Virus record (IMG/VR): IMGVR_UViG_3300035698_031462
Span: 1-25,086 of that record
Origin: a virus
Length of the DNA: 25,086 bases
Direction: 5' to 3' (one strand)
In this document: positions 1 to 23,069 of the stretch, piece by piece
Layout: every line of letters begins with the position of its first letter
Numbering within the stretch: the first letter of the stretch is position 1
The notes under the pieces: generated by a model
Told to the model about the DNA's origin: nothing
The model's database searches: none
The model's input: only the letters and a program-made list of their open reading frames with translations
Position numbers and translations under genes: made by a program

Positions 1-253
1 CGGTTTCAGGAACGGCTTTAAATTTAATCATAATACCCGAAGTGCCTTCATGGAACGTTGCTCGCAGAAGTTGTAATTCAGGTACTTTTATTGGTTCATA
101 TAACCAACGAATACAAGCAAATATAGTTGCCATCACAGGTATGGGCAAAAGTGCATAATAATAAGCATACCCCAACCAACGTAAAAAACAAATCGATAGT
201 ATCACCACAAAAAACAGCCCCACTACTAAACAAATCGCAGTACTTTTATGCAC
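1..253 (-). CDS. Partial small membrane protein, N-terminal part
   Basis: A minus-strand frame is open from a GTG at 251-253 to the window edge, about 84 codons. The start is supported by an AGGGGAGA-type ribosome binding site about 8 bases upstream. The N-terminus is strongly hydrophobic: a segment around CLVVGLFFVVILSICFL (residues 7-23) and a second around YYALLPIPVMATIFACI suggest two membrane helices, followed by a polar region (YEPIKVPELQLLRATFHEG). The gene overlaps the 3' end of the upstream endonuclease gene by 28 bases. The family is not recognised. It is not the missing C-terminal part of DnaE, because no polymerase motif is visible. Confidence 0.6.
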   Translation of the reverse strand, partial: MHKSTAICLVVGLFFVVILSICFLRWLGYAYYYALLPIPVMATIFACIRWLYEPIKVPELQLLRATFHEGTSGIMIKFKAVPET

Positions 254-1296
254 TTCTTAATCTCCCCTATTGCTCTCTTATATCGCGGCAAGTATGTCTC
301 TCGTTTACAATTACCAGGCTTGACTACTCGCAGAATTATACCCAACTCCTTACATACTCGACGCTTAATTCTATCATTAGCTTTTCTCGCCCATAAGGCC
401 TCTTCTCCATAAATGGGTTTATAATGAGTAGACCCATTTATTTCCACTGCAAATTTGATAGTTGGAAAATAAAAATCCAATTCCAAAGATCGCCCCGTTC
501 TACCAACTCCCTTAAGTACATCCCAATTGTTTCGACTATATGACACTCCTAAACCCTGAACCAATTTCTCAAATTCCGTTTCGACAAAACTCTCAGAGAA
601 TACAAACAAAGAAAAACACCCTTTCGAACAAAAATAATGGCGCTCTTTCATTGCAGAAGGAGACTTCCAAACCATCTTGCCACACTTCTCGCACTTTACT
701 TCTGTTTTATGGTTCTGAAATTCATCGTGACACCCAATAGAACAAAAAATATTTTGTCGGTCTTTTAACACACTGGGAGGGCGATAGAATATTTTATCAC
801 ATTGTGCACAATTTCGTGATTCTCTCTTATCATTGTATTTTGATCTACACTTAGTGGAACAACAATGAATTGGATAACGTTTCTGCTCAGCTAGGACTTT
901 CTCAAACTCCTTACTACACATAACGCACTTCACTTGATAGCCTTTGCGATAATATTTACTTTTACAAGAATTATCACAAAAAAATCTACCAGTTTCATTT
1001 TCTTGTATTTGCCCAGGTGTTTTAAGCAGATTGGCCCTACAATTCATACACTGGACAACAGACTGAGTAGTAAACTTACGGCTACAGTCATAACCACAAA
1101 AATGCCTCTTACTATTAGCAACTCTATATGGCTCTTTCCAAACTTTTTTACCACACATGTCACAAGAAATCAAAACATTATTATTGGCACGATCAGATTG
1201 GTAATAACATTTTTGAGAACAATAATACTTTTTGTTTTGCTTACGAACTTTCTTTCTTTCAAACTTAACACCACATCCAGAACAAGTGAGCTTCAT
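226..1296 (-). CDS. Zinc-finger array homing endonuclease, EDxHD/Vsr-like nuclease domain
   Basis: A 356-residue protein from the ATG at 1296, chosen because AGGAG lies 7 bases upstream; the longer frame from 1371 has no such site. Residues 5-227 hold six tandem units of the form CxxC-x(16-20)-C-x3-C (for example CSGC...YYCSQKC, CDMC...FCGYDC, CEKC...FCSKGC), probably zinc-binding DNA-recognition modules. The C-terminal 125 residues carry LELDFYFP (E272, D274), AVEINGSTHY (E285, H291) and D308 ahead of KRRVCKELGI. This is the layout of the EDxHD homing endonucleases, a Vsr-like branch of the PD-(D/E)XK fold that includes I-Bth0305I and the endonucleases found in fractured phage genes. It lies directly downstream of a truncated dnaE, so it probably inserted there. 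A mobile endonuclease role is inferred from fold and position. Confidence 0.8.
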   Translation of the reverse strand: MKLTCSGCGVKFERKKVRKQNKKYYCSQKCYYQSDRANNNVLISCDMCGKKVWKEPYRVANSKRHFCGYDCSRKFTTQSVVQCMNCRANLLKTPGQIQENETGRFFCDNSCKSKYYRKGYQVKCVMCSKEFEKVLAEQKRYPIHCCSTKCRSKYNDKRESRNCAQCDKIFYRPPSVLKDRQNIFCSIGCHDEFQNHKTEVKCEKCGKMVWKSPSAMKERHYFCSKGCFSLFVFSESFVETEFEKLVQGLGVSYSRNNWDVLKGVGRTGRSLELDFYFPTIKFAVEINGSTHYKPIYGEEALWARKANDRIKRRVCKELGIILRVVKPGNCKRETYLPRYKRAIGEIKKCIKVLRFV

Positions 1297-1348
1297 AATA
1301 TTTCTCCTATTAATCCACTTACTATTCCAAAAACATGGGAAGCATTCC

Positions 1349-1370
1349 TGCATTTTTTTTAAAAAATGCA
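1349..1370. repeat. Palindrome between dnaE stop and endonuclease gene
   Basis: A perfect 22-base palindrome, TGCATTTTTT then TT then AAAAAATGCA on the plus strand, lies just after the dnaE stop codon at 1377-1379. On the minus-strand transcript it would form an A/U-rich hairpin of 8-9 pairs. No T-run follows it in the transcribed direction beyond its own arm, so it is a poor terminator candidate. It may mark the insertion junction of the endonuclease gene. Confidence 0.4.
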
Positions 1371-1376
1371 ACTTTA

Positions 1377-2728
1377 TTATATTCTCCCATCTGAAGAAAT
1401 CTGCGTTTTTGGCTCAATTTGGCTGGTTATACCAAAATCATCCTCTGAAAAGAACGCCAAATTGTCAAATCCCAAAAAACGCTCCCATAAGAACCCGTAT
1501 TCTAAACAATCTATAACTCCATCCACAATACCAATACATTTTAATAAAAGTGATCCATAGCCCGAGCCCCTAATGCCTGCTGCAATGGATTTCTCCCGTG
1601 CAAACCTCATAACATCTTCAACAATTAAGAAGTATGTAGCAAAATCAAATCGCTTTGTATCCCAGATGAGCTTTATATCTCCAAGCTCCATCTTCAACCT
1701 TTCAACATGCTGAGGTGAATTCTCCAACCCAAGTCGCTTTAACCCTTGCCAACCTTTTTTCTCTAAACATTCATAAGGAGTAGATGAACCCTCTGGAAGT
1801 TCAAACTTAGGCAACAACATCTTTCCACCCAAAACAATATCAGAGTAATCACACTTCTCTGCTATTTCCAGTGTGTTACTCATGCCTGATGGTATAGTGT
1901 TCCCGAAAATATTTGCCATTTCTTCTTTGGACTTAAAATAGAATTCCTTATAAGGAAAGTTGTACCGACGTGGATCTTTGATAGTTCTCATAGAACTAAT
2001 ACATGTTATAATCTCATGAAACTCAGCATCTGCCTTGTTGATATAATGAATATCATTAGTTACGATAATTTTGACATCCATTTCTTTAGACAATTTCTGA
2101 ATATCTGGTAATATTTTCTGTTCCTTACTAAGTCCATGAAACATGGCCTCTAGATAATAATCATCACCGTATATATCTTTAAAGCACGCAACAGCTCTTT
2201 TGGCTAAATCATATCTATCACATAATAAACAATGATTGACAACATTTGAGAGGCACGCACTAGTAGCAATAACACCTTCGGAGTATTCACTAAGTAGTTC
2301 TAAGTCTACCCGAGGATCATAGTAAAATCCATCCAAAGAAGCGATCTGTGATAAAGAACAAATGTTTTGAAAGCCAACAAAATTTTTCGCAATCAAGACA
2401 ATATGACGATTAGCCTTACGTCCACCTGGTTGTTCTTTCTTGCTTTGAGCTTTATGGTTTGGACATAAATATCCTTCCATTCCCAATATGGGTCGAACAT
2501 CCTGATTGCGACATTCTTGTAGAAAATCAATTGCTCCAGCAAAAGTTCCATGATCAGTAAGCCCACAAGCTGACATTCCATGTTTTTTAGCTGTAGAAAC
2601 TAAATCTTTTACTGATGCAAATCCATCAAACTTTGAGTACTGAACATTTCAGCAACCACTCCCCTCCACAAAAACGTAGAGGGAAGTAGTTACTGACTAT
2701 GATTGTGAATGTGACAAAAATCAATCAT
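1377..2728 (-). CDS. dnaE: DNA polymerase III alpha N-terminal part (PHP domain), interrupted by a bypass-like gap and 3'-truncated
   Basis: The main frame (1377-2639) begins at YSKFDG and continues through GLTDHGTFAGA, ATSACLSN, VTNDIHYI and RGSGYGSLLL, ending soon after GFLWERFLGFDN. These are the PHP domain and the start of the polymerase palm of DnaE. The PHP metal motif is missing from this frame but present upstream in another: ATG at 2728, with GGAGG about 8 bases before it, encodes MIDFCHIHNHSQ and then hits UAA (2690-2692). Joining the last CAG (2693-2695) to a second CAG (2640-2642) gives FCHIHNHSQYSKFDG, matching the family exactly with no missing residue. The 50 nt between the CAGs fold into a long hairpin, so translational bypass is inferred. 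The frame stops before the catalytic palm aspartates; the C-terminal two thirds are absent, with an endonuclease gene directly downstream. It is split or degraded. Confidence 0.85.
2640..2695 (-). promoter_or_regulatory. Candidate translational bypass element in dnaE (CAG-UAA ... CAG)
   Basis: On the minus strand the order is take-off codon CAG (2695-2693), stop UAA (2692-2690), a gap totalling 50 nt (2692-2643), and a second CAG (2642-2640) followed by in-frame DnaE sequence. The gap starts with a 17-pair RNA stem including several G-U pairs: UAACUACUU plus CCCUCUAC on the 5' side, loop GUUUUU, then GUGGAGGG plus GAGUGGUUG. Because 50 plus 3 is not a multiple of three, a plain stop readthrough cannot restore the protein. 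The geometry (matched codons, stop after take-off, a gap near 50 nt, hairpin at the gap start) parallels T4 gene 60. Known self-splicing introns are far larger than 53 nt. Confidence 0.75.
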
Positions 2729-6700: not shown

Positions 6701-7678
6701 TCACCTCGCAAATATATCAAAACACTTCGTCTTAACTCTTAAACGTCGCTGAGCTATTTTGTAACTATCCTCGTTATTTTCGTAACCACAAAACTTCCTG
6801 CCAAAATTGCGTGCCGCGACTCCCGTAGTTCCCGAACCCATGAAAGGATCTAAAACCACAACATCTTCTTCTACAATTGAAGGGCGAGGAGTAACCAAGC
6901 GTATCAAACGCTCCATTAACTCTACAGGCTTAACTGTATCATGTGCGTTAAAATCTTCTTTCTCAGATTGACTAGGTTTCGGAATCATAAAAATGTGATC
7001 ATATTGCACAAACATATGGTCCATCCATATTAAATTCGCAGGCCACCTACCCATAGGATGAACGTTACATTGCTTCTTGTTGCCGGTATTTGCGGAAAAA
7101 TATTTATCATTGCCATAATTCTTCCCAGCAAAGTGCTCAAAACTTTCTAACTGCTTCTTATCTTCTTCGTTTTTATAAGGAATACGACATTCATCAATAT
7201 TCAATCCGCCAACATTATACTTTAACACATTTTCGGCATAAGTGCCTTCGGTTGGTTTTTGAGCCATAACAATAGGCTCCCATGCCGTTTTTAGTTGCGT
7301 CCCCCAACCATCCCAATCTTTATTTGTAGACTTACCAATATCCAAACTATGAGGGAATCCACTGGCATATCCCCAGCAAAGACAATCCTTAATTTTGAAA
7401 CCAACATCCTCCAAGCTGCATCCTAATCTATGGTACAATCTACAGTGACCAAATGCCAACAAGAAAGCACCAGGACGCATAACTTTAAAACACGCTTCCC
7501 AAATCCCTTTATCAGGAAGAACCTTATCCCAATTTAGCCCTAAAAACTTCATGCCATAAGGGGCTCAGTAGGGTGGGTCAGTGACTACTGCGTGTACAGA
7601 ATTTTCTTCCAAATTCTGTGGAATCATTTCTGCTGAGTCACCATAACCCACCCTACATTTTCCTTTCTTTTTCTTCAT
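6701..7678 (-). CDS. DNA N4/N6 methyltransferase with in-frame UGA in the DPPY motif
   Basis: This enzyme would transfer a methyl group from SAM to adenine N6 or cytosine N4. Motif order is beta class: catalytic motif IV first, then LDPFMGSGTTG (SAM-binding motif I) near the C-terminus, with GRWPANLI and VKPVELMERL between. The frame from ATG 7678 encodes GYGDSAEMI...SVHAVVTDPPY (codons 11-37), then UGA (7567-7565), Ala, Pro, Tyr, then GMKFLGLNWDK. The family normally has DPPYG directly followed by a hydrophobic FMG/FLG segment, so the 12 bases from UGA to the second Tyr codon are extra. The start is uncertain: a GTG at 7651 (codon 10) is also possible. Recoding, bypass or a nonsense lesion would each explain the pattern. 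The rest shows no decay. The upstream endonuclease gene overlaps the start by 26 bases. Confidence 0.8.
7556..7656 (-). promoter_or_regulatory. Candidate recoding element: nested mRNA hairpin, UAC-UGA-GCC-CCU-UAU
   Basis: Three nested inverted repeats lie in the methylase mRNA just before the in-frame UGA. The outer arms are 7646-7656 and 7568-7578 (11 perfect pairs, GUAGGGUGGGU with ACCCACCCUAC). The middle arms are 7636-7641 and 7581-7586 (6 pairs). The inner arms are 7611-7619 and 7596-7604 (9 perfect pairs, ACAGAAUUU with AAAUUCUGU, 6-base loop). The 3' foot of the outer stem ends exactly on the Tyr codon UAC preceding UGA. Nine bases later comes UAU, another Tyr codon read by the same tRNA, followed by the normal motif. 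A peptidyl-tRNA hop from UAC to UAU would restore DPPYG. Confidence 0.6.
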
Positions 7679-8453
7679 TTTCTCCATATCCATTGCAATC
7701 TAGTAAATTCAACAAGCGCAACTCTTTTCGTTGCCACACTTCCAGAGGTATATTATATTCAGAACGAAATGAAGCAATTTTATCTCTGTCTTTTTGTTTC
7801 ATCCATCCTTTCACTTCAATGATTTTTTCTATAGTGTTATTGTGTAGTATGAAAAAATCTGGAACATAAGTTTTGTTTAGAGACATTAGATAATATCGTC
7901 GGTATTCGTATTTCCAAACTAGGTCTTTGCTGTCCAAATATTGAGCAACCACCAATTCCCAAGAAGACCGAAAGTAACAACGCTGTTTCCCTACACAATG
8001 CCATCCCTGCTTCCACATTGTCGGTTTAAAATCAGGAGACTTGCCATACATAGGGTTATTCTTGCCCGACATATCTATTGATTTTTGTTTCTCATAACAC
8101 TCTCTATCACAAAATACTCTTTCTTTGCTTCTCTTTTTGGAAGTAAGGAATTTCTCATTACAATAAAAACAGACGTATTCCCAAGAATGGTGAGTTGCCC
8201 ACCGTTTACCCAAATTAGATTTCAAGAACCTGCCACGGCAACCAGCACTACAGAAACTCTGAGCAGACTTAGCTTTGCTAGGTGTACGATAAAAGACATT
8301 CCCACATAAACATTGCAATTCGATCTTCTTCTCCAACTGCGATGCTCTAATTTTATAGCTACACTCCCTAGAACACGTAGTTTGACGACCGTGTTTTAGT
8401 CTTTTAGGATCAGCCTCATACTTCTCTCCGCAGACTGGGCACGCCCGAATCAT
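7653..8453 (-). CDS. Zinc-finger homing endonuclease with PD-(D/E)XK nuclease domain
   Basis: A 266-residue protein. Residues 5-119 contain three cysteine units of the same type as in the 226-1296 gene (CPVC...TCSREC, CLC...FCSAGC, CFYC...FCDREC). MSGKNNPMYGKS (residues 128-139) resembles a NUMOD3 DNA-binding module found in homing endonucleases. The C-terminal domain has SSWE (E166), YVPDFFI (D199) and IIEVKGW (E213, K215), the PD-(D/E)XK catalytic layout. It starts with a 4-base overlap with the upstream helix-turn-helix gene and ends inside the methylase start, so the endonuclease gene is wedged between two phage genes. The cleavage target is unknown; the adjacent methylase is the natural candidate. 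Confidence 0.8.
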   Translation of the reverse strand: MIRACPVCGEKYEADPKRLKHGRQTTCSRECSYKIRASQLEKKIELQCLCGNVFYRTPSKAKSAQSFCSAGCRGRFLKSNLGKRWATHHSWEYVCFYCNEKFLTSKKRSKERVFCDRECYEKQKSIDMSGKNNPMYGKSPDFKPTMWKQGWHCVGKQRCYFRSSWELVVAQYLDSKDLVWKYEYRRYYLMSLNKTYVPDFFILHNNTIEKIIEVKGWMKQKDRDKIASFRSEYNIPLEVWQRKELRLLNLLDCNGYGENEEKERKM

Positions 8454-9919: not shown

Positions 9920-10817
9920 TCCCACACAATCCCACTAAGTCCATAGCCTTATTACGTGCCGCAAACATACGAGCTGCATCTTCGCTTACTATGAATAACT
10001 CTTTCCCTACACGATTCTTCAGTCTAGATGCCGTCATTGAATATAACCACTGATCTGAAATCATCCGCTCTTCAGGAACTCCACACTGAGACCATACATG
10101 ACGAAGCTCCACACAATCGTCTACAGTGACCACATATCGAAAAGATCCCGATGTTACTCTCTCCGCCAAGTCCTTATGAGCCTCAAGGTCAAACGCATGC
10201 TGATAACATTGAGCACCCTTCTTTAAATAAGGAGGATCTAAAAAAAGTGACACTCCCTTATCCGAACCTTCTTCTAACACCTTCTCCCAAGGCAGGTTAG
10301 TAATCTCGCACGTCTGCAATATCTTGTTAGCCTGCCCAATACGCTTAATGGTTGAGTAATGAGACCAACGAGCAGTAATCGGATACTGACTCCTCTGATT
10401 CATGCCGCCAGTCGGACCACCAGTCACAACGCCACTAAAACAAGTCTTGATCAAAAACAAGAACCTGTAACCGGCTGGATAAATCTTATGATTGACATCT
10501 GCTTTCACTTCCTGCCAAAGACTAATCGCTCGTTTGATTTTCTTCTTGTCACCACGATGGTCTAACATTGGAGTGTGTTCTGTTATTAAATCAATAAGTT
10601 GATCAGGATCTTCTTTGACCATCCTCCATAAATCATAGACTCCAGGGTCTATATCGTTAATCCAAGCATTCTCGAACCCACTAGCCAAGTATACGCTGCC
10701 TCCACCAACAAATGGCTCACGATAATTGCGTTCATTCTTCTTTAGATACATCAGTATCTTAGATGTATGTCTGCTTTTACCACCGGGATACCTAATGAAG
10801 CTCCTCGTGTGTGCCAC
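9897..10817 (-). CDS. D12-class DNA adenine methyltransferase
   Basis: It methylates adenine N6 using SAM. The N-terminal SAM motif is FIRYPGGKS with REPFVGGGSVYLA and INDIDP, and the catalytic motif is FLDPPYLKKG (DPPY at about 194-197). About 306 residues, the usual size for Dam-like D12 enzymes. The start is taken as the GTG at 10817 because GGGAG lies 8 bases upstream and it overlaps the stop of the upstream GIY-YIG gene; a second in-frame GTG at 10832 is possible. A methylase in a phage usually protects its DNA from host restriction. A possible nuclease partner follows immediately. Confidence 0.85.
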   Translation of the reverse strand: MAHTRSFIRYPGGKSRHTSKILMYLKKNERNYREPFVGGGSVYLASGFENAWINDIDPGVYDLWRMVKEDPDQLIDLITEHTPMLDHRGDKKKIKRAISLWQEVKADVNHKIYPAGYRFLFLIKTCFSGVVTGGPTGGMNQRSQYPITARWSHYSTIKRIGQANKILQTCEITNLPWEKVLEEGSDKGVSLFLDPPYLKKGAQCYQHAFDLEAHKDLAERVTSGSFRYVVTVDDCVELRHVWSQCGVPEERMISDQWLYSMTASRLKNRVGKELFIVSEDAARMFAARNKAMDLVGLCGNAEGSIG

Positions 10818-11560
10818 TATATGTACTCCCACAAAAAAGATTTATAATGCTTATTTTTCCCAGTCATATACCTCCATATCCCCGAATATGAATACCCTGC
10901 GATCTCTGCCGACGCCAAAGATGGGAATGTGCGAACTATTTTTCCATCCATGGTTTTCTGAACAACGGTTTTTTTGTTCGTGCTACGTAAACTATTAGCA
11001 AGGCTCGTATCAGGCGACCCTTTTTCTCTAACGCCTTTCAACGCACAACGACAAGCTTCTTTGGCATCCGCCAAACAGTTAAACCGACCCAAGTAATATT
11101 CCACACCCCTAAAACCAATCCTAACGATCCACTTCTCTCCATCATAAGTAACACCTGGATTCGGTTTGTTGCTCCGTGTTTTTCCTAATTTTGATTGGCT
11201 TATCTTCTCGCATTGCTCTAGTGTTAACTCTACCCGATCTGTATAGGGGTTAATGTTATAGCCATATTTATTATCGAGACAATTCATCTTATCAATCCAT
11301 TTTTGTTCTCTAGATTCTAAATCTTCGATTTCACAAATCTCTAGGCAAAAGGAATCAAAACTTAACTTCCCATATTTGTTCCACGAAGCTTGCAAATGAG
11401 GATTAGTATGCACTCCTCGTTGTAATTTATCAAAGTGTTGGCTTCTCACTCTGTGATAACAGTTTTTGGAGCTTCCAATGTAGATTTTGTCATTTTCCAA
11501 GTTCCTAATGCAGTATATACCGCATTGATTTCCGTCCCATTTTAGAGGTATTTGTTCCAT
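10817..11560 (-). CDS. GIY-YIG homing endonuclease
   Basis: A 247-residue protein with CGIYCIRN (GIY at 14-16), KIYIGSS (YIG at 27-29), an arginine in YHRVRSQHF and a glutamate in LESREQKWID, the catalytic set of GIY-YIG nucleases. The middle has LGRFNCLADAKEACRCA, resembling AP2-like DNA-binding modules. The C-terminus, GKIVRTFPSLASAEIAGYS, resembles a NUMOD1 helix-turn-helix. Such modular proteins are freestanding or intron-borne homing endonucleases. It starts with AAAGGAG 6 bases before the ATG and has its own TATAAT. It sits between two D12 methylase genes, which suggests it spread by targeting one of them. Confidence 0.85.
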   Translation of the reverse strand: MEQIPLKWDGNQCGIYCIRNLENDKIYIGSSKNCYHRVRSQHFDKLQRGVHTNPHLQASWNKYGKLSFDSFCLEICEIEDLESREQKWIDKMNCLDNKYGYNINPYTDRVELTLEQCEKISQSKLGKTRSNKPNPGVTYDGEKWIVRIGFRGVEYYLGRFNCLADAKEACRCALKGVREKGSPDTSLANSLRSTNKKTVVQKTMDGKIVRTFPSLASAEIAGYSYSGIWRYMTGKNKHYKSFLWEYI

Positions 11561-13878: not shown

Positions 13879-14467
13879 TATGAAACTCCCATTTTATACC
13901 ATATCTCCCCTTCAGGAAATCAAAAATCATAAACGAGCCTTTTCTTTGCCAAAACTCGGTATTCAAAGTGTGTCCTTTGTGCAATATGGTATTGGTGGCA
14001 ATTTGACACGACAAAGGATGTGAAATAATCAATATTTTCTTGTTTAGAACATATTTATCACAAATATCATTAATGCATTTCATCATGCGAAATCTGCACT
14101 GTAAAATTGATTCACCCTCTTCAGCTAACACTCTGGAATGACAAAAGATATCACTAGTCCATGGTATCCAACTGCGACTTAGCACTCCTAAATTACGCTC
14201 GCGTAATCCCTTTAATTTACGAGTATCATTACTGGTCAAGCGATTATCTTGAGATTTTAAACGCAACTTATGAACTAATTTTAACACCCGCGTAGCATCA
14301 CTGCTGAACAACACATCTATTCGCTTAACCTTTGTATAAAAATATGACCCTATTTTATCTGCTTGCTGATTCCCCAACGGGCTTGCAGGGACATCGTCAC
14401 TACCAGGCATTAAATTAGATTCTTCTAATACAGTTGACACATCGTTCATTAATATTAACTGACTCAT
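13781..14467 (-). CDS. Histidine-phosphatase-fold protein lacking the catalytic RHG motif
   Basis: A 228-residue protein with the layout of the phosphoglycerate-mutase-like histidine phosphatases: LILM at the first strand, SPLGNQQADKIGSYF, FSSDATRV (R60), LRERNLGVLS, EEGES (E119) and ILIISHPLS (H150). The first strand should be followed by RHG, whose histidine is phosphorylated in catalysis. Here the sequence reads LILMNDVST, so the nucleophilic histidine and its arginine are missing. The protein is probably not a classical phosphatase and may have a binding or structural role. Its ATG overlaps the DnaB stop as ATGA. The 3' end overlaps the CHC2 gene. Confidence 0.7.
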   Translation of the reverse strand: MSQLILMNDVSTVLEESNLMPGSDDVPASPLGNQQADKIGSYFYTKVKRIDVLFSSDATRVLKLVHKLRLKSQDNRLTSNDTRKLKGLRERNLGVLSRSWIPWTSDIFCHSRVLAEEGESILQCRFRMMKCINDICDKYVLNKKILIISHPLSCQIATNTILHKGHTLNTEFWQRKGSFMIFDFLKGRYGIKWEFHSAFNPLDDSSYSTEDIYNRLLGNEGSRTNSGS

Positions 14468-17223
14468 CCTATATCATCCAGTTCATAATTTGAGGTTTGG
14501 AATTCCAGGGCTTTCTTCTCTTGATGTTTTATTACAACTTCTGGAGGGGTATTAAGTTGTGTTTCAATGTCAAGACCAAAGTCATTCTCTAGAATATTAT
14601 GAGAAACATCAGTTCCTGCAATTTTACAAATGTCAGCATTGAGGTGCAATTCTTTAGTGTAGCCATGAGGTCCATACCGAGATTTGACAACATGTAATTT
14701 AATTCGATTTTCCTCATCAGGCACACTTGTCATGGCGAAAACAAACTCAGAGTGAGATGGTACTTCTTGGGAATCTTTAACAGCAGTTGAATCCAACTGC
14801 GCATCCGCACCTTCTTCACGAATGCGTTTAATATCCGAACGACCCAATTGTGCGGCTGTCATAATATGAAAACCATAACTCTTGCCCATAAATTTCAAAC
14901 CCTTAATCAGCTCCCCTAAAGCTAAATCATGTCTCATTGCAGATCGTTGCTCGGTCTTTAACAATGACAAATAATCCACCACCACAAGAACGGGCTTGAA
15001 ATAATTAATGCGCTTATCTAATTCTCGTTTTAGAGCAGATAAAGACAAGCGATCTTCAACATCGATGATCCCAAAATTCTCATAAAACCATATTTTAGAT
15101 TCTTCTATTTTCTTAACTTCTTCTGCGCTTAAGAGATTAGGGCTGAGTAATTTTGTATAAGAAATCTCTGTAGTGTTAGATACCATACGAGTCATAAAAT
15201 CCTCCCAGTCCATTTCTAATGGAAGGAACAAGACTTGCTTACCCGTATTGCGATTAACTTCCAATGCGACATTAAGCATTACATTAGTATTATGTGTAAT
15301 AAACCCATTAGCCACATAATTGTGATGAACAGGCATAGCGATATCGAATGTTTCGCAGGTTCCAACTTCTTGAATAGACGTAATTTTATCCCACAATACA
15401 TCTTGAGTAGCAAGTTTCATTAGTTGTGCATCATCATCCAAGTACTTGGCAAGCTCTACTAGACTATCGCGATTAACAGAAGCTCCACGCTTAGCTACTC
15501 TCTTAATTTCTCCACTTTCTTTAGCTTGTCTATATGATCTATAAGATTTCTGTTGCAAAACAAATTTCTTCTCGATCAACTCCCATATAGCACTAGGAAT
15601 TAAGTCTTTATTACGATTGGGAGAAACATGTATTTGTGATATAGATTTTCGAGCAAAATTACATTTAATTCCATAAAAACCTATTTTGTTAACAAACTTT
15701 CGAACTTGATAACTGTCCCTTATTTTAACTTGCCAACTCTCTCTTTTCTCGCCTTTATACTTGACAAAAATGCGGGCCAATTTTGCAACAATCTTAAAAC
15801 GCATCAACAAATCACGAACATCTTTAGCTAATTGTTGCGATGAAGATGCATATATTACAGAGCACCTAGTCTTGATAGTTCCATTTTTCTTAACCTCTTT
15901 TGCAATACTAAAACATCCATCACAAGCAAACATAGCTCTCAAAAAAACAATCAAACTATCTGCTGTCCATTGAAAGATTTCCGGATGCAGAGACTTTTCA
16001 ATTGCTTTACATCCATCAAGACCATAGTTTTTACCTATTGATCGCAAACTGGTAATATAATAATTCCCAACAATAATTTCTCCGTGCATTTTTTTAGGCT
16101 TTAATTTTCCTCCTAAAACAACACACGAATCGCTCATCATTTTGACAATTATGTCATCCTGATTACTAAAAGTATAAAGCGGTTGGCTAGTCCCTCCATC
16201 CGAATACATACATCCAAGCCAAAACGCCAAATCAAACTGTGGATCTTTGGCTCCAAATCCATAATGTCTTGCTATTCCTATATGCTCCCCAATTCCCAAT
16301 GATGATGCCTCGCTATATCCATTCAATTGTAAAAACGGGTGGTTTGAAGTAACATCAACACTAAATCCCAGTGAAGTAGTAATTCGTAGACATTTTTTAT
16401 TACCGTTCGATATTATTTTCTTGACTGGCTGATAATATAATTCACCCTTATTGTGATCATAAGACAAAATAGATAACTTTTCACCCAACTTGTGTTGATT
16501 AAACATTTCCTCGACAGTTGTTTGTGCTCCATTTTTAAGAAAGCATTTTTCATAATGAGCCAAACACTTATTTCCACCAGTGGCTCCAATAAACAAACTA
16601 GTATGCCCAGGCTTAAAACCAACATTCATCGCCTTATCAATTTCAGCGATTCCACACTTAATCATATTATGAGGATGATCGCGTTTTTCTTTTAACCGTT
16701 CAATAAATTCATCTTTCTTTTCATTGGCTGTAAAAAAGATAGATTTCTTAATCTCCGTTAAGTCCAACACAGAATCTAAATCTTCTCTATATTGCCGCGT
16801 AGCTCCAACGTACCCCATTTTAGATACGTTGTCATTAAATTTTCGCATTGCAGCTAAACCACCACGATAAACATACGCTTCAATAAGCTGCTTAATCAAC
16901 AGATCAAAATCATCTCTACTATTAGTATAACTCACACCATATCTACAGGAATGATATATCTGCATCGGTATACTAATATCACCTTTGCCACCCTGCTCGA
17001 TAAGTAAGGTGCGAAAATGTTTATCAGTTAAAAGTCGCTTCCCATCACTAATACTACCAGTATACAATATTGCCTGAGCTAAAGGTTGATGACGTTCAGC
17101 AAAAAAATCCATAGTAATATTGGCACTCATAACCTCATCAACAATATCAACATAACGCAACATTAAATTAAGAACCTTGCGTTCAACATCTAAATGTATT
17201 TTGTCTATGTTTTGTTCTGTCAT
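14464..17223 (-). CDS. dnaB: Replicative DNA helicase DnaB with an in-frame intein
   Basis: A 919-residue precursor; after removal of a 426-residue intein the mature helicase would be 493 residues, the normal DnaB size. The N-terminal domain covers about residues 1-160. The RecA-like domain begins at FKPGHTSLFIGATGGNK, which together with the post-intein TNVMLNVALEVNR forms Walker A GATGGNKT. Later motifs are FLPLEMDWEDFMTRMV, KPVLVVVDYLSLLKTEQ (Walker B), MTAAQLGRSD and VKSRYGPHG. It unwinds DNA at the phage fork. The ATG follows the dnaC-like stop with no gap, and the stop overlaps the next ATG, so loader, helicase and downstream genes form one translational unit. Confidence 0.93.
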   Translation of the reverse strand: MTEQNIDKIHLDVERKVLNLMLRYVDIVDEVMSANITMDFFAERHQPLAQAILYTGSISDGKRLLTDKHFRTLLIEQGGKGDISIPMQIYHSCRYGVSYTNSRDDFDLLIKQLIEAYVYRGGLAAMRKFNDNVSKMGYVGATRQYREDLDSVLDLTEIKKSIFFTANEKKDEFIERLKEKRDHPHNMIKCGIAEIDKAMNVGFKPGHTSLFIGATGGNKCLAHYEKCFLKNGAQTTVEEMFNQHKLGEKLSILSYDHNKGELYYQPVKKIISNGNKKCLRITTSLGFSVDVTSNHPFLQLNGYSEASSLGIGEHIGIARHYGFGAKDPQFDLAFWLGCMYSDGGTSQPLYTFSNQDDIIVKMMSDSCVVLGGKLKPKKMHGEIIVGNYYITSLRSIGKNYGLDGCKAIEKSLHPEIFQWTADSLIVFLRAMFACDGCFSIAKEVKKNGTIKTRCSVIYASSSQQLAKDVRDLLMRFKIVAKLARIFVKYKGEKRESWQVKIRDSYQVRKFVNKIGFYGIKCNFARKSISQIHVSPNRNKDLIPSAIWELIEKKFVLQQKSYRSYRQAKESGEIKRVAKRGASVNRDSLVELAKYLDDDAQLMKLATQDVLWDKITSIQEVGTCETFDIAMPVHHNYVANGFITHNTNVMLNVALEVNRNTGKQVLFLPLEMDWEDFMTRMVSNTTEISYTKLLSPNLLSAEEVKKIEESKIWFYENFGIIDVEDRLSLSALKRELDKRINYFKPVLVVVDYLSLLKTEQRSAMRHDLALGELIKGLKFMGKSYGFHIMTAAQLGRSDIKRIREEGADAQLDSTAVKDSQEVPSHSEFVFAMTSVPDEENRIKLHVVKSRYGPHGYTKELHLNADICKIAGTDVSHNILENDFGLDIETQLNTPPEVVIKHQEKKALEFQTSNYELDDIG
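15289..16566 (-). mobile_element. DnaB Walker A intein with LAGLIDADG endonuclease
   Basis: Residues 220-645 of the DnaB precursor. It begins with Cys (CLAHYEKCF) and ends VANGFITHN, with Thr as the first C-extein residue. Splicing motifs include TSNHPFLQLNG (block B, conserved His) and GTCETFDIAMPVHHNYVANG (block F). The central part has two LAGLIDADG-like helices, FWLGCMYSDGG and FLRAMFACDGC, so the element should encode an active or recently active homing endonuclease. Insertion between Lys and Thr of the P-loop makes splicing essential for helicase activity. The intein uses AT-rich codons like its host gene, so it is not a very recent arrival from a GC-rich source. Confidence 0.92.
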
Positions 17224-18069: not shown

Positions 18070-19260
18070 TTAGATTTCCTCCTTCTTAGAACCCCGTTTA
18101 CTCAAGGTGCTCTCCAGAGGCTTTACTTTGGGACGTCCCGTCCCTAGAAATAATTGATCCTTCATACCGAAATTAAGAATATTCTTAGCAGCATTTATAT
18201 CTCTATCATGAATAGATCCACATGCACACGTCCACTTCCTATTAGATAATTTCAACTCCCTGTTGATAGAACCACACTTAGAACACATCTTGCTACTAGG
18301 CTCAAATCTTCCTATTCTAACAATGTTCACTCCTGTCCACTCTGCTTTGTACTCAAGAAGTTCATTAAATTTACTCCAACTACAATCCTGAATGCTCTGA
18401 GCTAATTTGTGGTTCCTTAACATCCCTACTATATTCAAGTCTTCTAAGCATATAGTTTGATTCTCACTTATTAATCTAGAAGACAATTTGTGTAGAAAGT
18501 CTGTTCTTAAATTACGGATACGTTCGTGTAGTTTTGCTACTCTTAAATTGGCTTTTCTTTTGTGTTGACTTCCTTTCTGTTTCTTGCTTGCTCTACCTTG
18601 TAACTTTTTCAACCTAAACAAATGTGTTTTTAAATACTTAGGATTACTTACATTCTCTCCATCTGAAGTTGTCAAGAAACTTTTAACACCTAAATCTACT
18701 CCTATTGAAGAAGACTCTCGGATTCTATGTTTTTCGGGTGGCTTAATACCAGTGTCTACTAAAATACTGATGAAGTACTTGCCTGTGGGAGTCATGCTCA
18801 CAACAGCAGACTTAATATCTCCTTCAGGTTTTCTGTCAAGAGCAAACCTTACATTCGGGATCTTAGGAATTGATACTCTTTTGGTCTCCCAATCCACTCT
18901 AATGCTTTGAGGAACAGAGAATGATTTTCTTGAATGGTGCTTACTCTTGAATTTAGGAAAGCCTTTCTTTTCTCTAAAGAACCTAGTAAAAGCTTCATCC
19001 ATATTTTTGAGAGACATTTGAAGTGATTGAGAATTTACTTCTTTTAACCATGCTGTGTTTTCATCTTTTTTAAGCATAGGCAAATCAGCACTCAAATCAA
19101 ACCTAGACAGACTTGTTTTGTCTGTCTTATAAGCTTTTATTTTCTTTTCTAGAGCATAGTTGTATAGCCACCTACAACATCCAATGTGCTTATAAATGAG
19201 CACAGATTGTTTTTTTGTGGGATAGATTCTATATTTGTAAGCTCTATAGATTGTTTCCAT
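18070..19260 (-). CDS. tnpB: TnpB RNA-guided nuclease of IS200/IS605 type
   Basis: A 396-residue, apparently complete TnpB. The N-terminus AYKYRIYPTKKQ is typical. RuvC-like catalytic residues are D189 (SIGVDLGVKSF), E273 (CLEDLN) and D352 or D354 (HDRDINAAKNIL). The zinc ribbon is C326/C329 (CSKCGS) and C345/C347 (CACGS). The C-terminal tail GTGRPKVKPLES is the usual one, whose coding region commonly doubles as the 5' part of the guide (omega) RNA. TnpB uses a right-end RNA to cut DNA and thereby helps keep the transposon. TATAAT lies only 5 bases before the ATG, so its message may be nearly leaderless. Confidence 0.95.
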   Translation of the reverse strand: METIYRAYKYRIYPTKKQSVLIYKHIGCCRWLYNYALEKKIKAYKTDKTSLSRFDLSADLPMLKKDENTAWLKEVNSQSLQMSLKNMDEAFTRFFREKKGFPKFKSKHHSRKSFSVPQSIRVDWETKRVSIPKIPNVRFALDRKPEGDIKSAVVSMTPTGKYFISILVDTGIKPPEKHRIRESSSIGVDLGVKSFLTTSDGENVSNPKYLKTHLFRLKKLQGRASKKQKGSQHKRKANLRVAKLHERIRNLRTDFLHKLSSRLISENQTICLEDLNIVGMLRNHKLAQSIQDCSWSKFNELLEYKAEWTGVNIVRIGRFEPSSKMCSKCGSINRELKLSNRKWTCACGSIHDRDINAAKNILNFGMKDQLFLGTGRPKVKPLESTLSKRGSKKEEI

Positions 19261-19364: not shown

Positions 19365-19396
19365 TTGATCTTAGTTTCTTCATAAACTAAGATCAA
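19365..19396. repeat. 13-bp perfect inverted repeat across the AAA+ stop codon
   Basis: TTGATCTTAGTTT (19365-19377) and AAACTAAGATCAA (19384-19396) flank a 6-base loop. The repeat spans the last codons (IDLSL) and the stop of the AAA+ C-terminal ORF, so one arm is coding. No T-run follows on the minus strand. It may be a left-end hairpin of the IS element or an RNA-stabilising 3' stem. Confidence 0.6.
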
Positions 19397-20144
19397 TCAT
19401 CCTGCCAATCTCTCCCTTTGCATCAGAACTAGATTGGTTAGAAGTACTAACTTTCTTGCGAGAGTTTGCAAGAACAGCCCGACCACCTTGCCCATTTGTA
19501 CCCAATGCCCATTCTCGCATTCGTTGAATGTCTTCCCGTCGTGAATTATACAAAGGGTGGAAAGAAGACAATGCTTGCACTATATCATCTGTTGTTACTT
19601 GGCGTTTATTGTCCGCATAGGATACAAAAAGGGCGTTATCAATTCCCTTTTCAATCTCCACGGGCGTGTAATTTATACTCGCTGACACAATTGCATTAAT
19701 GTCGAATTTTTGCGACGATCTACCTTTTCGTCTCAGGAGCTTCTCAATAACCTCTTCTCGCTGTTCATCATTGGGTAAATCAATAAAGAAAATCTCATCA
19801 AACCTACCAGCACGCATAAACTCCGGGGGTATCCCAGCAATATTATTAGCAGTACAGACAACAAAGACAGGAGAATCCTTGTCTTGCATCCAAGTGAGCA
19901 TCGTGCCAAAGACACGATTAGTGACTCCTCCATCTGTAGAGTTACTACTCTCAACTCCACCAATGCCCTTTTCTACTTCATCCACCCATAAAATGCAATT
20001 GTGGCTAATAAAACCATTAGTAAAATACAAATGAGGATTTTCACAACTCACATCATAAACATACCCATCAAAATCAATCTCTTCAACAGATTCTATTTCG
20101 TTCTCAATGATTATTGACTCGTTATTTTGTGTGTTCTTTTGCAT
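19380..20144 (-). CDS. Ycf46-like AAA+ ATPase, C-terminal half with split-intein C-part
   Basis: A 254-residue ORF, started at the ATG at 20144 because AGGAG lies just upstream. Residues 1-49 are a C-intein: IESVEEIDFDGYVYDVSCEN, HLYFTNGFISHN, then Cys as first extein residue. Residues 50 onward continue the AAA+ domain: CILWVDEVEKGIGG (Walker B), VFVVCTANNIAGIP (sensor 1), FMRAGRFDEIFFIDLP (arginine finger region) and a lid domain. This matches Ycf46-type AAA+ proteins. The ORF cannot work alone because Walker A is in the upstream ORF (20994-23069). Trans-splicing would yield a protein of about 589 residues. An endonuclease gene lies between the halves. The last codons form one arm of an inverted repeat. 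Confidence 0.88.
   Translation of the reverse strand: MQKNTQNNESIIIENEIESVEEIDFDGYVYDVSCENPHLYFTNGFISHNCILWVDEVEKGIGGVESSNSTDGGVTNRVFGTMLTWMQDKDSPVFVVCTANNIAGIPPEFMRAGRFDEIFFIDLPNDEQREEVIEKLLRRKGRSSQKFDINAIVSASINYTPVEIEKGIDNALFVSYADNKRQVTTDDIVQALSSFHPLYNSRREDIQRMREWALGTNGQGGRAVLANSRKKVSTSNQSSSDAKGEIGRMIDLSL
19998..20144 (-). mobile_element. C-terminal half of a split intein (AAA+ Walker B site)
   Basis: 49 codons from the ORF start to His-Asn, followed by extein Cys-Ile-Leu-Trp. Block F is DGYVYDVSCENPHLYF and block G is NGFISHN plus C. The length fits natural C-inteins of about 35-50 residues. Its partner is at 20997-21356. Confidence 0.88.
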
Positions 20145-20973
20145 GGCATCTCCTACAAAGCAACTGTCCGTTTTGGGGATCAAAAAACATTATATCAGCA
20201 TATATCTTCTCTTTATTAAACCCATACTTCCTTATAAAGTCATACATCGAAACATACTTGTGATGAACTGTTAATTTCTCATCGCTTCCACACAAAACAC
20301 ACACTTCTTTATCTCTGATCCGAACTTTACTTCGCCACTCATAATATTCAGCACAATGACGCACAGATCTAACAAATTTTTGATAAGAGCTTTCACTGTC
20401 ACATATATCATGTGTCAATCTGCCAATGATTCCAAATTTAATTCTACATTCATTAGAACAATAATGTGTAGCATAATACCGTTTCTGCGAGGGATATATT
20501 TTAATCTCTGTTCTGCAACCATCACATTGTACAAAAATAGCGTCTTCTCTGTTGTGATAGCAATTATTAGAACAATAGTCCCCGAACTTAGACTTTTTTT
20601 CCCATTTGGCTCGTCGAAATTTCTTACCGCATTTTTTACACATTAAATCAAGAGAGCTGCGTTTGTGCCTACATTTGTTCGAACAATACTTAGCGGTCTT
20701 TTTCCTGTGTTCAGCAACAATAAATGTTTTACCACAGTAACAAACAATCTCACATCTACCACTTTCTCTACATAACTTAGAACAATATTTGGCTGAATCT
20801 TTTTTGTATTTAGGGACCAAGAATACAGTATTGCATTTAATACATCCAACCTCGTACTTAGAATGCTGACACTCTTTCGAACAAAATTTTCGTGTTCCTT
20901 TTCTACTTGCATAAACAAAAAATTCGTTACCACATCCAATACATCTTATTTTGCACTTGCTGGACTTTTTCAT
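20122..20973 (-). CDS. Zinc-finger HNH homing endonuclease inside a split intein gene
   Basis: 283 residues from the ATG at 20973, which has AAGGAG 9 bases upstream; the longer frame from 21009 lacks a comparable site. Five tandem CxxC...C-x3-C units fill residues 10-185 (CIGC...FCSKEC, CIKC...YCSKLC, CYC...YCSNKC, CKKC...YCSNNC, CDGC...YCSNEC), the same module as in the genes at 226-1296 and 7653-8453. The C-terminus is an HNH domain: YEWRSKVRIRDKEVCVLCGS, KLTVHHKYV, GQLLCRRCHAKEH. It lies exactly between the two intein halves of the AAA+ gene, overlapping the downstream start by 23 bases. This is the fractured-gene arrangement, in which a freestanding endonuclease sits in the break of a split intein. 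Confidence 0.88.
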   Translation of the reverse strand: MKKSSKCKIRCIGCGNEFFVYASRKGTRKFCSKECQHSKYEVGCIKCNTVFLVPKYKKDSAKYCSKLCRESGRCEIVCYCGKTFIVAEHRKKTAKYCSNKCRHKRSSLDLMCKKCGKKFRRAKWEKKSKFGDYCSNNCYHNREDAIFVQCDGCRTEIKIYPSQKRYYATHYCSNECRIKFGIIGRLTHDICDSESSYQKFVRSVRHCAEYYEWRSKVRIRDKEVCVLCGSDEKLTVHHKYVSMYDFIRKYGFNKEKIYADIMFFDPQNGQLLCRRCHAKEHTK

Positions 20974-20993
20974 AAGCAATATCTCCTTGTATG

Positions 20994-23069
20994 CTATTGT
21001 TGTATACAATATATTGCCTCTCCTTTTACAAAGTCCTTTGCTTTTTTCATTTTTCTTGCATTAGCCATTAATAAATGATTTGGGGTTGTTACTATCTCCT
21101 GTCCTGATTTGGTTTTAATTTTAATTAATCGACCTTTTAATTTGGTTCTGATCAACGCTTTGACTTTTAGTTTTTTTGTCAAACCTTCTCTGTCAACCCC
21201 GTCAACAACCGTGTGTTTTTTAGGAGAAATATATACAACCTTTTGAGAGCCATTATCAGTAGTTTCATTATTGGAATCCAATTTTTCTCTTGTAAATAAA
21301 CTTTCTATTTCTAAAAAATCCCCGTTTATGTTAATGCGGGTACTGCCCACAACACAAGGTGCTATGGCCTCTGCTGTACGAAGACATTCGCGGATATTAT
21401 TTTCCGACTCGCCGACGTGAGAAGCAAATATGGCTCCGAAATCCAAACGCAACAAAGGCATTTGATATAAATCAGCTAAAGCATCACAGGCAGCGCTCTT
21501 ACCTGTGTTATGAGACACAATGTCATTCGAATAATATCGGTGAGTTACACTTTTTACCTCTAAATCAAATGTGTTTTTTACTCCAATACACTCTTTAGCT
21601 ACGACCTTTTTCCAACCTGCATTCCAGGCACCTCGCTCGTTCTTGGTAAGTATCGAATCAGTTTGAACATCTATATCTTCAGCTTTTTTCCAAACAAACA
21701 CCCATGGATCATCAATATTATTTGTAGCCCACACATAATGGTCATACGAGCAACCTAATTGAACTCCATTTTCCAAAACAAGGTTATAGCACTCCTTGTT
21801 TTGTTTTTGGACTAAGTCCCCTACATTTTGCCACCCATCAGGTGTTTCTATTTGATAAGTACCGCCCTTTCTGCATAGTTCAAAAAAATCTTCTATTGTT
21901 ATTTCTTGTACTTGATCTTCTGGCATAATAGTTCCATTATGCTTCGGCTTAACTTCTACTAATACTTTCCCATCTACTATAAAATCCGGACTATATTCTA
22001 CGAATATTTTGTGCTCTCCTTCATCAGAAACTTTTTTTACCTTAATTTTTGTTTTTCTTAAAACACATCTTGGAATCCCTAAATCCAAAACCCCCTTGGG
22101 TGCGGGTAAGCCAAACTGTCGTGCATCTTCCTTAAATGCTAAACGACGCAATGCTAACCAATCCTTGAGTGTGTCTAGTCCGCCCAGATCGTCCATAGTA
22201 AAACGAGAATCACGATACTCTAGAATCCCACCCTTCCGAATCATCTGCTTCTTCTCATCAAGGATAGTTTGTATGTTAAACTTACGATCCTTAACAATGG
22301 TCATCGCATAAGCATTTTCAGCCTCATTAATAGTCAAACCAGAAGCAGCTTTCACTAAATCTTCTTCTTGTTCTTTGGCTTGATGATAAGCTTGAGGTAA
22401 TTTATTAGAAATTTCTTTCCCAATTTGCAGAAGAGCACGCTTGATTTCCTTATAAGAAGGAACTGGAAAATCAACAAGTGTAACATCTTTCTCTAGAGAT
22501 GGAGAACAAACAAATGTCGGAGAAATGATAACCACTACAGTGCTAGAAATAATTCCACCTATTTCTTTAAGTTTTCGTTCAACCTGTGGAATACTATCTA
22601 AGAAAACATGAAAATCCAAAAGTAAATAAATACTCTCTTCAGATAGTTGTTTCTTTTCAATGACAATCTTACTTTGCTTGCCAGCATGGTCTACAATGTG
22701 TGACAAGACAGCAATAGGGCTCTCATGAACTTCTGAATCTTCCACCACTACCGGCTTTTGTGTTTCTGCATTAAGAAGTCCACGATCACAATCCCACCGA
22801 AAAAGCTCTGCTCCTCTATAGATTGCCAAGTCTTTAAAAAAATCTACTACACGTCGCTCTTCAGAAGTACGAACATACAGAATCTTAAAACGACTTTGGA
22901 TCATATAATTAAGATCACGACCAATTGATCCATCGCCAGCCGCTAACATTCTTTCTTTGGCTTGGGTTCGTTCGTCTTCTGACAGATGTACTTTACCATC
23001 AAATGGCGGAGCTATTGGCTGTTGAGTTGTCTGAGCTTTCGGAACTGAGTTGACAATCTTCTTTGGCAT
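20994..23069 (-). CDS. Ycf46-like AAA+ ATPase, N-terminal half with cis intein and split-intein N-part
   Basis: A 691-residue ORF. Residues 1-334 contain the Ycf46-type N-terminal domain (YMIQSRFKILYVRTSEERRV, FRWDCDRGL) and the start of the AAA+ domain (MDDLGGLDTLKDWLALRRLA, PKGVLDLGIPR). Residues 335-521 are an intein, 522-571 continue the extein (TGKSAACDALADLY, VGESENNIRECLRTAEAIAP) and 572-691 are an N-intein ending at a stop. The mature Walker A would read GIPRTGKS. Completion needs the downstream ORF 19380-20144. Ycf46-like ATPases are little understood; a chaperone-like or DNA-associated role in phage replication is inference. It starts with AAGG 9 bases before the ATG, inside the last 71 bases of the IF3 gene. 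Confidence 0.9.
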   Translation of the reverse strand: MPKKIVNSVPKAQTTQQPIAPPFDGKVHLSEDERTQAKERMLAAGDGSIGRDLNYMIQSRFKILYVRTSEERRVVDFFKDLAIYRGAELFRWDCDRGLLNAETQKPVVVEDSEVHESPIAVLSHIVDHAGKQSKIVIEKKQLSEESIYLLLDFHVFLDSIPQVERKLKEIGGIISSTVVVIISPTFVCSPSLEKDVTLVDFPVPSYKEIKRALLQIGKEISNKLPQAYHQAKEQEEDLVKAASGLTINEAENAYAMTIVKDRKFNIQTILDEKKQMIRKGGILEYRDSRFTMDDLGGLDTLKDWLALRRLAFKEDARQFGLPAPKGVLDLGIPRCVLRKTKIKVKKVSDEGEHKIFVEYSPDFIVDGKVLVEVKPKHNGTIMPEDQVQEITIEDFFELCRKGGTYQIETPDGWQNVGDLVQKQNKECYNLVLENGVQLGCSYDHYVWATNNIDDPWVFVWKKAEDIDVQTDSILTKNERGAWNAGWKKVVAKECIGVKNTFDLEVKSVTHRYYSNDIVSHNTGKSAACDALADLYQMPLLRLDFGAIFASHVGESENNIRECLRTAEAIAPCVVGSTRININGDFLEIESLFTREKLDSNNETTDNGSQKVVYISPKKHTVVDGVDREGLTKKLKVKALIRTKLKGRLIKIKTKSGQEIVTTPNHLLMANARKMKKAKDFVKGEAIYCIQQ
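20997..21356 (-). mobile_element. N-terminal half of a split intein (AAA+ Walker B site)
   Basis: 120 codons from Cys (CVVGSTRININGDFLEIESL) to the stop. Block B is GQEIVTTPNHLLM with the conserved Thr and His, followed by the usual KKAKDFVKGEAIY segment. The endonuclease region and C-terminal blocks are missing and supplied by the separate ORF starting at 20144. Confidence 0.88.
21507..22067 (-). mobile_element. Cis intein in AAA+ Walker A
   Basis: 187 codons from Cys (CVLRKTKIKVKKVSDEG) to DIVSHN, followed by extein TGKS. Block B is LENGVQLGCSYDHYVW, with the His kept but Ser in place of the usual Thr. Block F is GVKNTFDLEVKSVTHRYYSN. No LAGLIDADG or HNH domain is present. An N-terminal insert, YSPDFIVDGKVLVEVKP, resembles a PD-(D/E)XK core. 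The size is that of a mini-intein with a small extra segment. Confidence 0.88.

Follow-up and report, generated by a model that had tools for sequence, protein, structure and literature searches.

Two genes of one phage, both lying beside homing-endonuclease genes, may be expressed by programmed translational bypassing. In this tentative reading, ribosomes would cross 50 nt in dnaE at a take-off hairpin resembling that of T4 gene 60, and in a methylase gene would perform a hop of a new, shorter type. This would be an in-frame stop-hop occurring naturally, with a 12-bp stem driving the 12-nt slide by closing in the ribosome's wake. For the methylase mRNA by itself, no other single explanation does as well as programmed bypassing that shifts the ribosome 12 nt forward, though we hold it with slightly less than even confidence. 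That ribosomes skip 12 bases of this gene is suggested by a stop-initiated excess within a catalytic motif, placed directly after a strong hairpin, together with a T4-like insert in dnaE of the same contig. To our knowledge, well-supported cases of translational bypassing are confined to a single yeast mitochondrial lineage and gene 60 of T4. The methylase, if the reading is true, would be a variant of a very rare phenomenon. It would also be the first natural in-frame stop-hop in the reviewed literature, a 2016 review knowing of none (PMC5009743; no later case found).

Genetic code of the window

The window, meaning the whole 25,086-base stretch of an IMG/VR virus record analysed here, is a single metagenomic contig with nearly all confident genes on the minus strand, and neither single-sequence search nor megablast returned a close relative. 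ORFs of at least 100 aa cover 91% of the window under translation table 11 and UGA terminates 8 of its 28 listed genes, so UGA is a genuine stop and the code is standard. The sequence-only reading had raised a code in which UGA is sense; reassignment (genetic code 4 or 25) is ruled out by this ORF cover and by the UGA-terminated genes. Scanning for VTDPPY followed by UAA or UGA recovered methylases in three phage contigs (L031, L032 and L035), in which UGA occupies the glycine position of DPPYG (written DPPY-TGA). ORF cover of these contigs is 0.20-0.46 under table 11 versus 0.86-0.96 with UGA as a sense codon, apparently for Gly, and their methylases are therefore code variants and not parallels. 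Apart from the window, DPPY-UGA methylases were found only in such UGA-sense contigs.

A stop-initiated excess in a methylase catalytic motif

The whole methylase frame lies at about 7693-6701 on the minus strand, as does every feature described below for this gene. Read through its one interruption, it matches the N6_N4_Mtase profile (PF01555, E 4.7e-30) and contains motif IV (DPPY, interrupted) and motif I (FMGSGTTG). The 5' reading frame, delimited by translation and by alignment to homologues, is MDMEKMKKKKGKCRVGYGDSAEMIPQNLEENSVHAVVTDPPY (42 codons, 7568..7693), with alternative starts at ATG 7687, ATG 7678 and GTG 7650. Codons at the interruption are ordered GAC CCA CCC TAC / TGA GCC CCT TAT / GGC ATG AAG. 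The candidate take-off codon UAC, the Tyr of DPPY (7568..7570), is followed immediately by an in-frame UGA (7565..7567), which opens a 12-nt excess, UGA GCC CCU UAU (7556..7567). The excess ends in the candidate landing codon UAU (7556..7558), the first UAY in any frame past take-off, after which the frame resumes with GMKFLG (6701..7555; PF01555, phrog_67). The minus-strand sequence bears out the initial description of the gene as TDPPY-UGA-A-P-Y-GMKFLG, with synonymous Tyr codons flanking a 9-nt gap after an immediate stop.

Alignment to homologues agrees with the excess of 12 bases that had been proposed from the window alone. Among 80 IMG/VR phage homologue loci, all 76 motif matches place 8 residues between DPPY and W[D/N], as do isolated phages, versus 12 in the window, so the excess amounts to 12 nt; it is missing in every homologue examined. 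No methylase with the pattern DPPYxxPYG was found in 2.9 million viral contigs, and none with TDPPYxxPYG in 84,980 GTDB species genomes. Homologue spacing and these scans together show that the 12 nt are in frame, start with a stop codon and are private to this gene. An intron was also considered and rejected, 12 nt being too short and the window having no Rfam match at E up to 1.

UGA readthrough, yielding DPPY-X-APY-GMKF, is improbable. The insert is in frame, and suppression of a single stop would restore a full-length chain, but that chain would carry four extra residues in the catalytic loop, found in no homologue. A homologue with a sense codon at the UGA position of the APY extension, which would have favoured readthrough, was absent from both the viral and the prokaryotic (GTDB) genome collections. 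The RNA structure at this site, described below, lies 5' of the stop, whereas readthrough stimulators are usually 3' of it.

Using other synonymous codons, the insert encodes xPYG again and resembles a second copy of PPYG, a result to be expected if two diverged methylases had been joined out of alignment. A recombination or repair scar is an unlikely but substantial alternative, under which break repair beside the endonuclease gene fused two divergent motif IV copies (CCA CCC TAC TGA and GCC CCT TAT GGC) out of register. The methylase would then be either dead or produced in two pieces, a peptide of 42 aa and a chain of 283 aa started anew at ATG 7552. This ATG lies 12 nt beyond the stop and opens a frame of 283 aa (7552-6701). 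The methylase family is targeted by an endonuclease elsewhere, with an HNH gene inside a member of the same family in phage Applejack, and endonuclease-split enzymes exist in T4-like phages (PMC2988022). Of 76 near-invariant columns the window methylase also retains only 64, fewer than any other sequence among the 76 in the alignment, although many of the changes are conservative. This count appears compatible with either divergence or some relaxation, and the earlier claim that the downstream part shows no decay holds only approximately. Against this alternative, the downstream frame and motifs are intact, and ATG 7552 has no Shine-Dalgarno sequence ahead of it. A scar would moreover leave unexplained both the very stable, gene-specific structure that ends exactly on the last sense codon and the dnaE element in the same contig. 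No orthologue of the window methylase was found in related large phages, where the motif-bearing methylases seen were mostly of TSPPY types.

A gene-specific stem ending on the candidate take-off codon

Folding, shuffles, recodings and comparison with homologues delineate a 5' structure at 7568..7656 on the minus strand, composed of an outer 12-bp stem and inner helices. The outer stem pairs GUAGGGUGGGUU (7656-7645) with GACCCACCCUAC (7579-7568), and the last three bases of this 3' arm are the take-off codon UAC. The region 7660-7565 folds at -41.1 kcal/mol (z -6.0 versus dinucleotide shuffles), and 2000 alternative synonymous codings of the peptide included no fold of equal stability (z -4.8). 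Codon shuffling gives z -6.8 for the window methylase versus a mean of -0.37 and a minimum of -2.57 for 74 homologues, and the helix that ends at the DPPY Tyr codon has 13 bp in the window versus at most 7 bp in the homologues. Across 651 kb of the phage family, 10 of 43,226 sampled 90-nt segments (0.023%) reach -39.9 kcal/mol and so match the methylase structure in stability, and the methylase stem and the dnaE hairpin are the strongest coding-strand structures in the window. The opposite strand of the methylase stem folds about equally stably (-40.2), and a role at the DNA level is therefore possible.

The base of the stem includes the endonuclease stop UAG (7655-7653) and the possible GTG start at 7650, so the structure could serve translational coupling. 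A coupling or initiation-control hairpin for the endonuclease-methylase pair would account for a 5' arm that begins at the endonuclease stop codon, and hairpin control is known for phage homing-endonuclease genes (PMC3014915). Under this explanation, to which we assign a low probability, the UGA insert would be an unrelated lesion, but the stop would be left unexplained and it would be by chance that the 3' arm ends precisely on the take-off codon.

A T4-like insert in dnaE

A second insert interrupts dnaE-N, also on the minus strand. Alignment to DnaE places its first codons, MIDFCHIHNHSQ, at 2693..2728, the last of them being the candidate take-off codon CAG (2695-2693); only 12 codons precede take-off. 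Folding predicts a 22-bp hairpin with a UUUU loop (2649..2696), whose 5' arm holds the take-off CAG and the following UAA (2692-2690). The candidate landing codon, also CAG (2640..2642), lies 50 nt past take-off, and UAC (2639) resumes YSKFDG. The gene start reads HIHNHSQ, UAA plus insert, and CAG-YSKFDGF, versus an uninterrupted HxHxHSxxSxFDG in relatives, and the resumed YSKFDGF fits the PHP motif of DnaE. This matches the earlier suggestion that dnaE holds a second stop-initiated insert at which hopping would restore a motif. The insert is absent from the relatives whose start was inspected.

The remainder of the gene (1377..2639) is the natural N-terminal half of a split DnaE, as judged by its identity to large phage contigs. 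Relatives at 14 loci of such contigs (39 to 548 kb) are 43-50% identical to dnaE-N, and those of them that were read through also terminate it at ...WERFLxF..DFG; they share the natural N-terminal half, which rules out a decayed fragment. A family of large phage contigs (L118-L121 and L207-L220; up to 548 kb) has a natural split in DnaE, with the N-part, about 430-470 aa long, separate from the C-part; L121 has an intein in dnaE-N.

The dnaE hairpin folds at -36.9 kcal/mol (z -10), versus only -18.8 on the opposite strand, and 5 of its 22 pairs are G.U, so it appears built as coding-strand RNA. The G.U pairs also argue that the stem is no mechanical inverted copy, which bears on a further alternative, that the metagenome contig contains a minority variant or an error of sequencing or assembly. 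The data come from a single contig, but an exact in-frame insertion of 12 nt together with a structured 50-nt insert in dnaE would be hard to produce by error, and we consider this alternative highly improbable.

Matched flanking codons prove nothing alone. Screening 651 kb, comprising the window and relatives, for stops with a same-tRNA codon no more than 75 nt on that opens at least 150 codons returned 1,670 sites, and any duplication-like 12-nt insertion would yield the matched Tyr codons, which are thus weak evidence. RNA structure ranks both candidates high in this screen: the dnaE site has the most stable gap hairpin of the 1,670, and the methylase site is third by 5' structure, below two out-of-frame stops inside open genes. 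No sibling bypass element was seen among the other top matches inspected in the 651 kb, which were out-of-frame stops in intact genes or ordinary hairpins. The hop proposed by the sequence-only reading is partly supported: the excess, the stop, the codons, the gene-specific stem and the dnaE parallel speak for it, but the matched codons carry little weight and the 9-nt methylase gap contains no T4-type take-off (A-site) hairpin. A programmed event seems favoured by the gene-specific stem ending on the take-off codon and by a dnaE insert with the architecture of T4 gene 60; bypassing is better supported for dnaE than for the methylase.

Proposed mechanism and comparison with known bypassing

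Under programmed bypassing, the ribosome would read MDMEK...TDPPY and halt when UAC occupies the P site and UGA the A site. It would then release, slide forward 12 nt (9 nt between codons) and re-pair on UAU, and translation would go on with GMKFLG, restoring the family motif DPPYG. The driving force may be the 5' stem, which would draw the mRNA forward by refolding once the ribosome had passed. At take-off the ribosome would enclose the 3' arm of this stem, freeing it after the shift, and the outer 12 bp could close only once the 12 nt of GACCCACCCUAC had left the ribosome; as this length equals the shift of 12 nt, stem closure is predicted to pull the mRNA by the length of the hop. If this is true, the gene would offer a small, testable model for ribosome movement by refolding mRNA.

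T4 gene 60 served as the control (NC_000866 2852-2803, minus strand); its UUCG hairpin holds AU-GGA-UAG in the 5' arm, and its landing codon is GGA. Both window genes resemble it in having a stop immediately after the take-off codon (UAC-UGA, CAG-UAA), a landing codon read by the take-off tRNA (UAC/UAU, CAG/CAG), a resumed motif that fits homologues and an insert within a conserved enzyme region. Like T4 gene 60, dnaE has a tetraloop hairpin whose 5' arm contains both the stop and the take-off codon, and the same codon recurs 50 nt on. The methylase shares an endonuclease gene on the 5' side (mobA in T4; PMC5009743) and a stem-loop upstream of take-off, far more stable than that of T4. GAG stands upstream of the landing codon in both, by six nt in T4 (PMC3014915) and by 5 nt before UAU in the methylase. 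Basic residues may also be comparably placed, with KKYK 29-32 residues before G46 in T4 gene 60 and KKKKGK 30-35 residues ahead of methylase take-off, the latter depending on the start codon; the T4 residues K14-K17 act 29-32 residues ahead of take-off (PMC11194080, PMC5009743).

The T4 model combines a nascent peptide that blocks termination, parting of codon and anticodon, and structures refolding behind the ribosome that drive forward motion (PMC11194080, PMC5009743). Unlike T4 gene 60, with its gap of 50 nt, the methylase has an in-frame gap of 9 nt and take-off and landing codons that are synonymous instead of identical; its gap is free of any hairpin, and the structure is found upstream, where the take-off codon forms the end of its 3' arm. 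The T4 5' structure scores z -0.2 by the same statistic, and a very stable 5' stem is therefore no defining T4 feature. Given this unexceptional T4 value and the missing A-site hairpin, the methylase would be a different design from T4.

Synthetic stop-hops in Escherichia coli (Weiss et al. 1987, reviewed in PMC5009743) are in-frame and have same-tRNA codons flanking the stop, as in the methylase, but were obtained in artificial constructs. The mitochondrial byp elements of Magnusiomyces capitatus are likewise bypassed inserts occurring several per genome, as with the two candidates in the window; unlike these structured phage elements, they are mitochondrial, use an unused A-site codon and are seemingly independent of mRNA context (PMC5009743).

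Endonuclease genes and mobile elements

The ORF at 8453-7653 (7653..8453, minus strand) sits directly 5' of the methylase and overlaps its start. It combines a zinc-ribbon-like N-terminus with a T7 endonuclease I-like nuclease domain (Phage_endo_I, 2.4e-5, weak and below cut-off; phrog_9019, 1.5e-14), and with these two domains is predicted to be a free-standing homing endonuclease. The methylase insert probably arrived with this homing-endonuclease-like gene, and it may shield the DPPY-coding site from cleavage, as proposed for mobA and gene 60 of T4, where the 50-nt insert is thought to be protective (PMC5009743). A second zinc-ribbon endonuclease gene, HEN-like, follows dnaE-N (226..1371, minus strand; phrog_559 and phrog_9084 homing endonuclease) and is weakly similar to two other HEN-like ORFs, 8453-7653 and 21009-20122.

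The window holds two candidates in one contig, each in a conserved motif, each within or next to a very strong RNA structure, and each in a gene with an endonuclease gene at its flank. If both are true, this would suggest that endonuclease genes recurrently leave behind inserts, which phages then bypass at the level of the ribosome. More such cases may be hidden, because gene finders would call both genes broken.

Fractured genes associated with Vsr-related homing endonucleases were reportedly described by Dassa et al. in 2009. The window resembles these in its zinc-ribbon endonucleases, its phage context and, at 19380-23069, a split intein whose halves are separated by a free-standing endonuclease; the methylase differs in lacking an intein or intron and in having two parts only 12 nt apart. 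The gene at 19380-23069 (minus strand) encodes an AAA ATPase with two inteins, the second split by the free-standing zinc-ribbon HNH ORF 21009-20122 in a fractured-gene arrangement. Endonuclease-like ORFs occupy the same AAA split-intein place in G001 and G003, and in the related phage L204 a relative of the 8453-7653 endonuclease separates the two split-intein halves of the AAA ATPase gene.

Other mobile elements of the window, all on the minus strand, include a GIY-YIG homing-endonuclease-like gene between two Dam-like methylase genes (10817-11560), a DnaB helicase gene with a LAGLIDADG intein at the Walker A motif (14464-17223) and a stand-alone TnpB (IS605 OrfB; 18070-19260) with no recognised TnpA. 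In the related phage L240, a very strong hairpin at about 15375-15470 (plus strand) spans the codons for Walker A in a recA-like gene that is intact and carries no insert.
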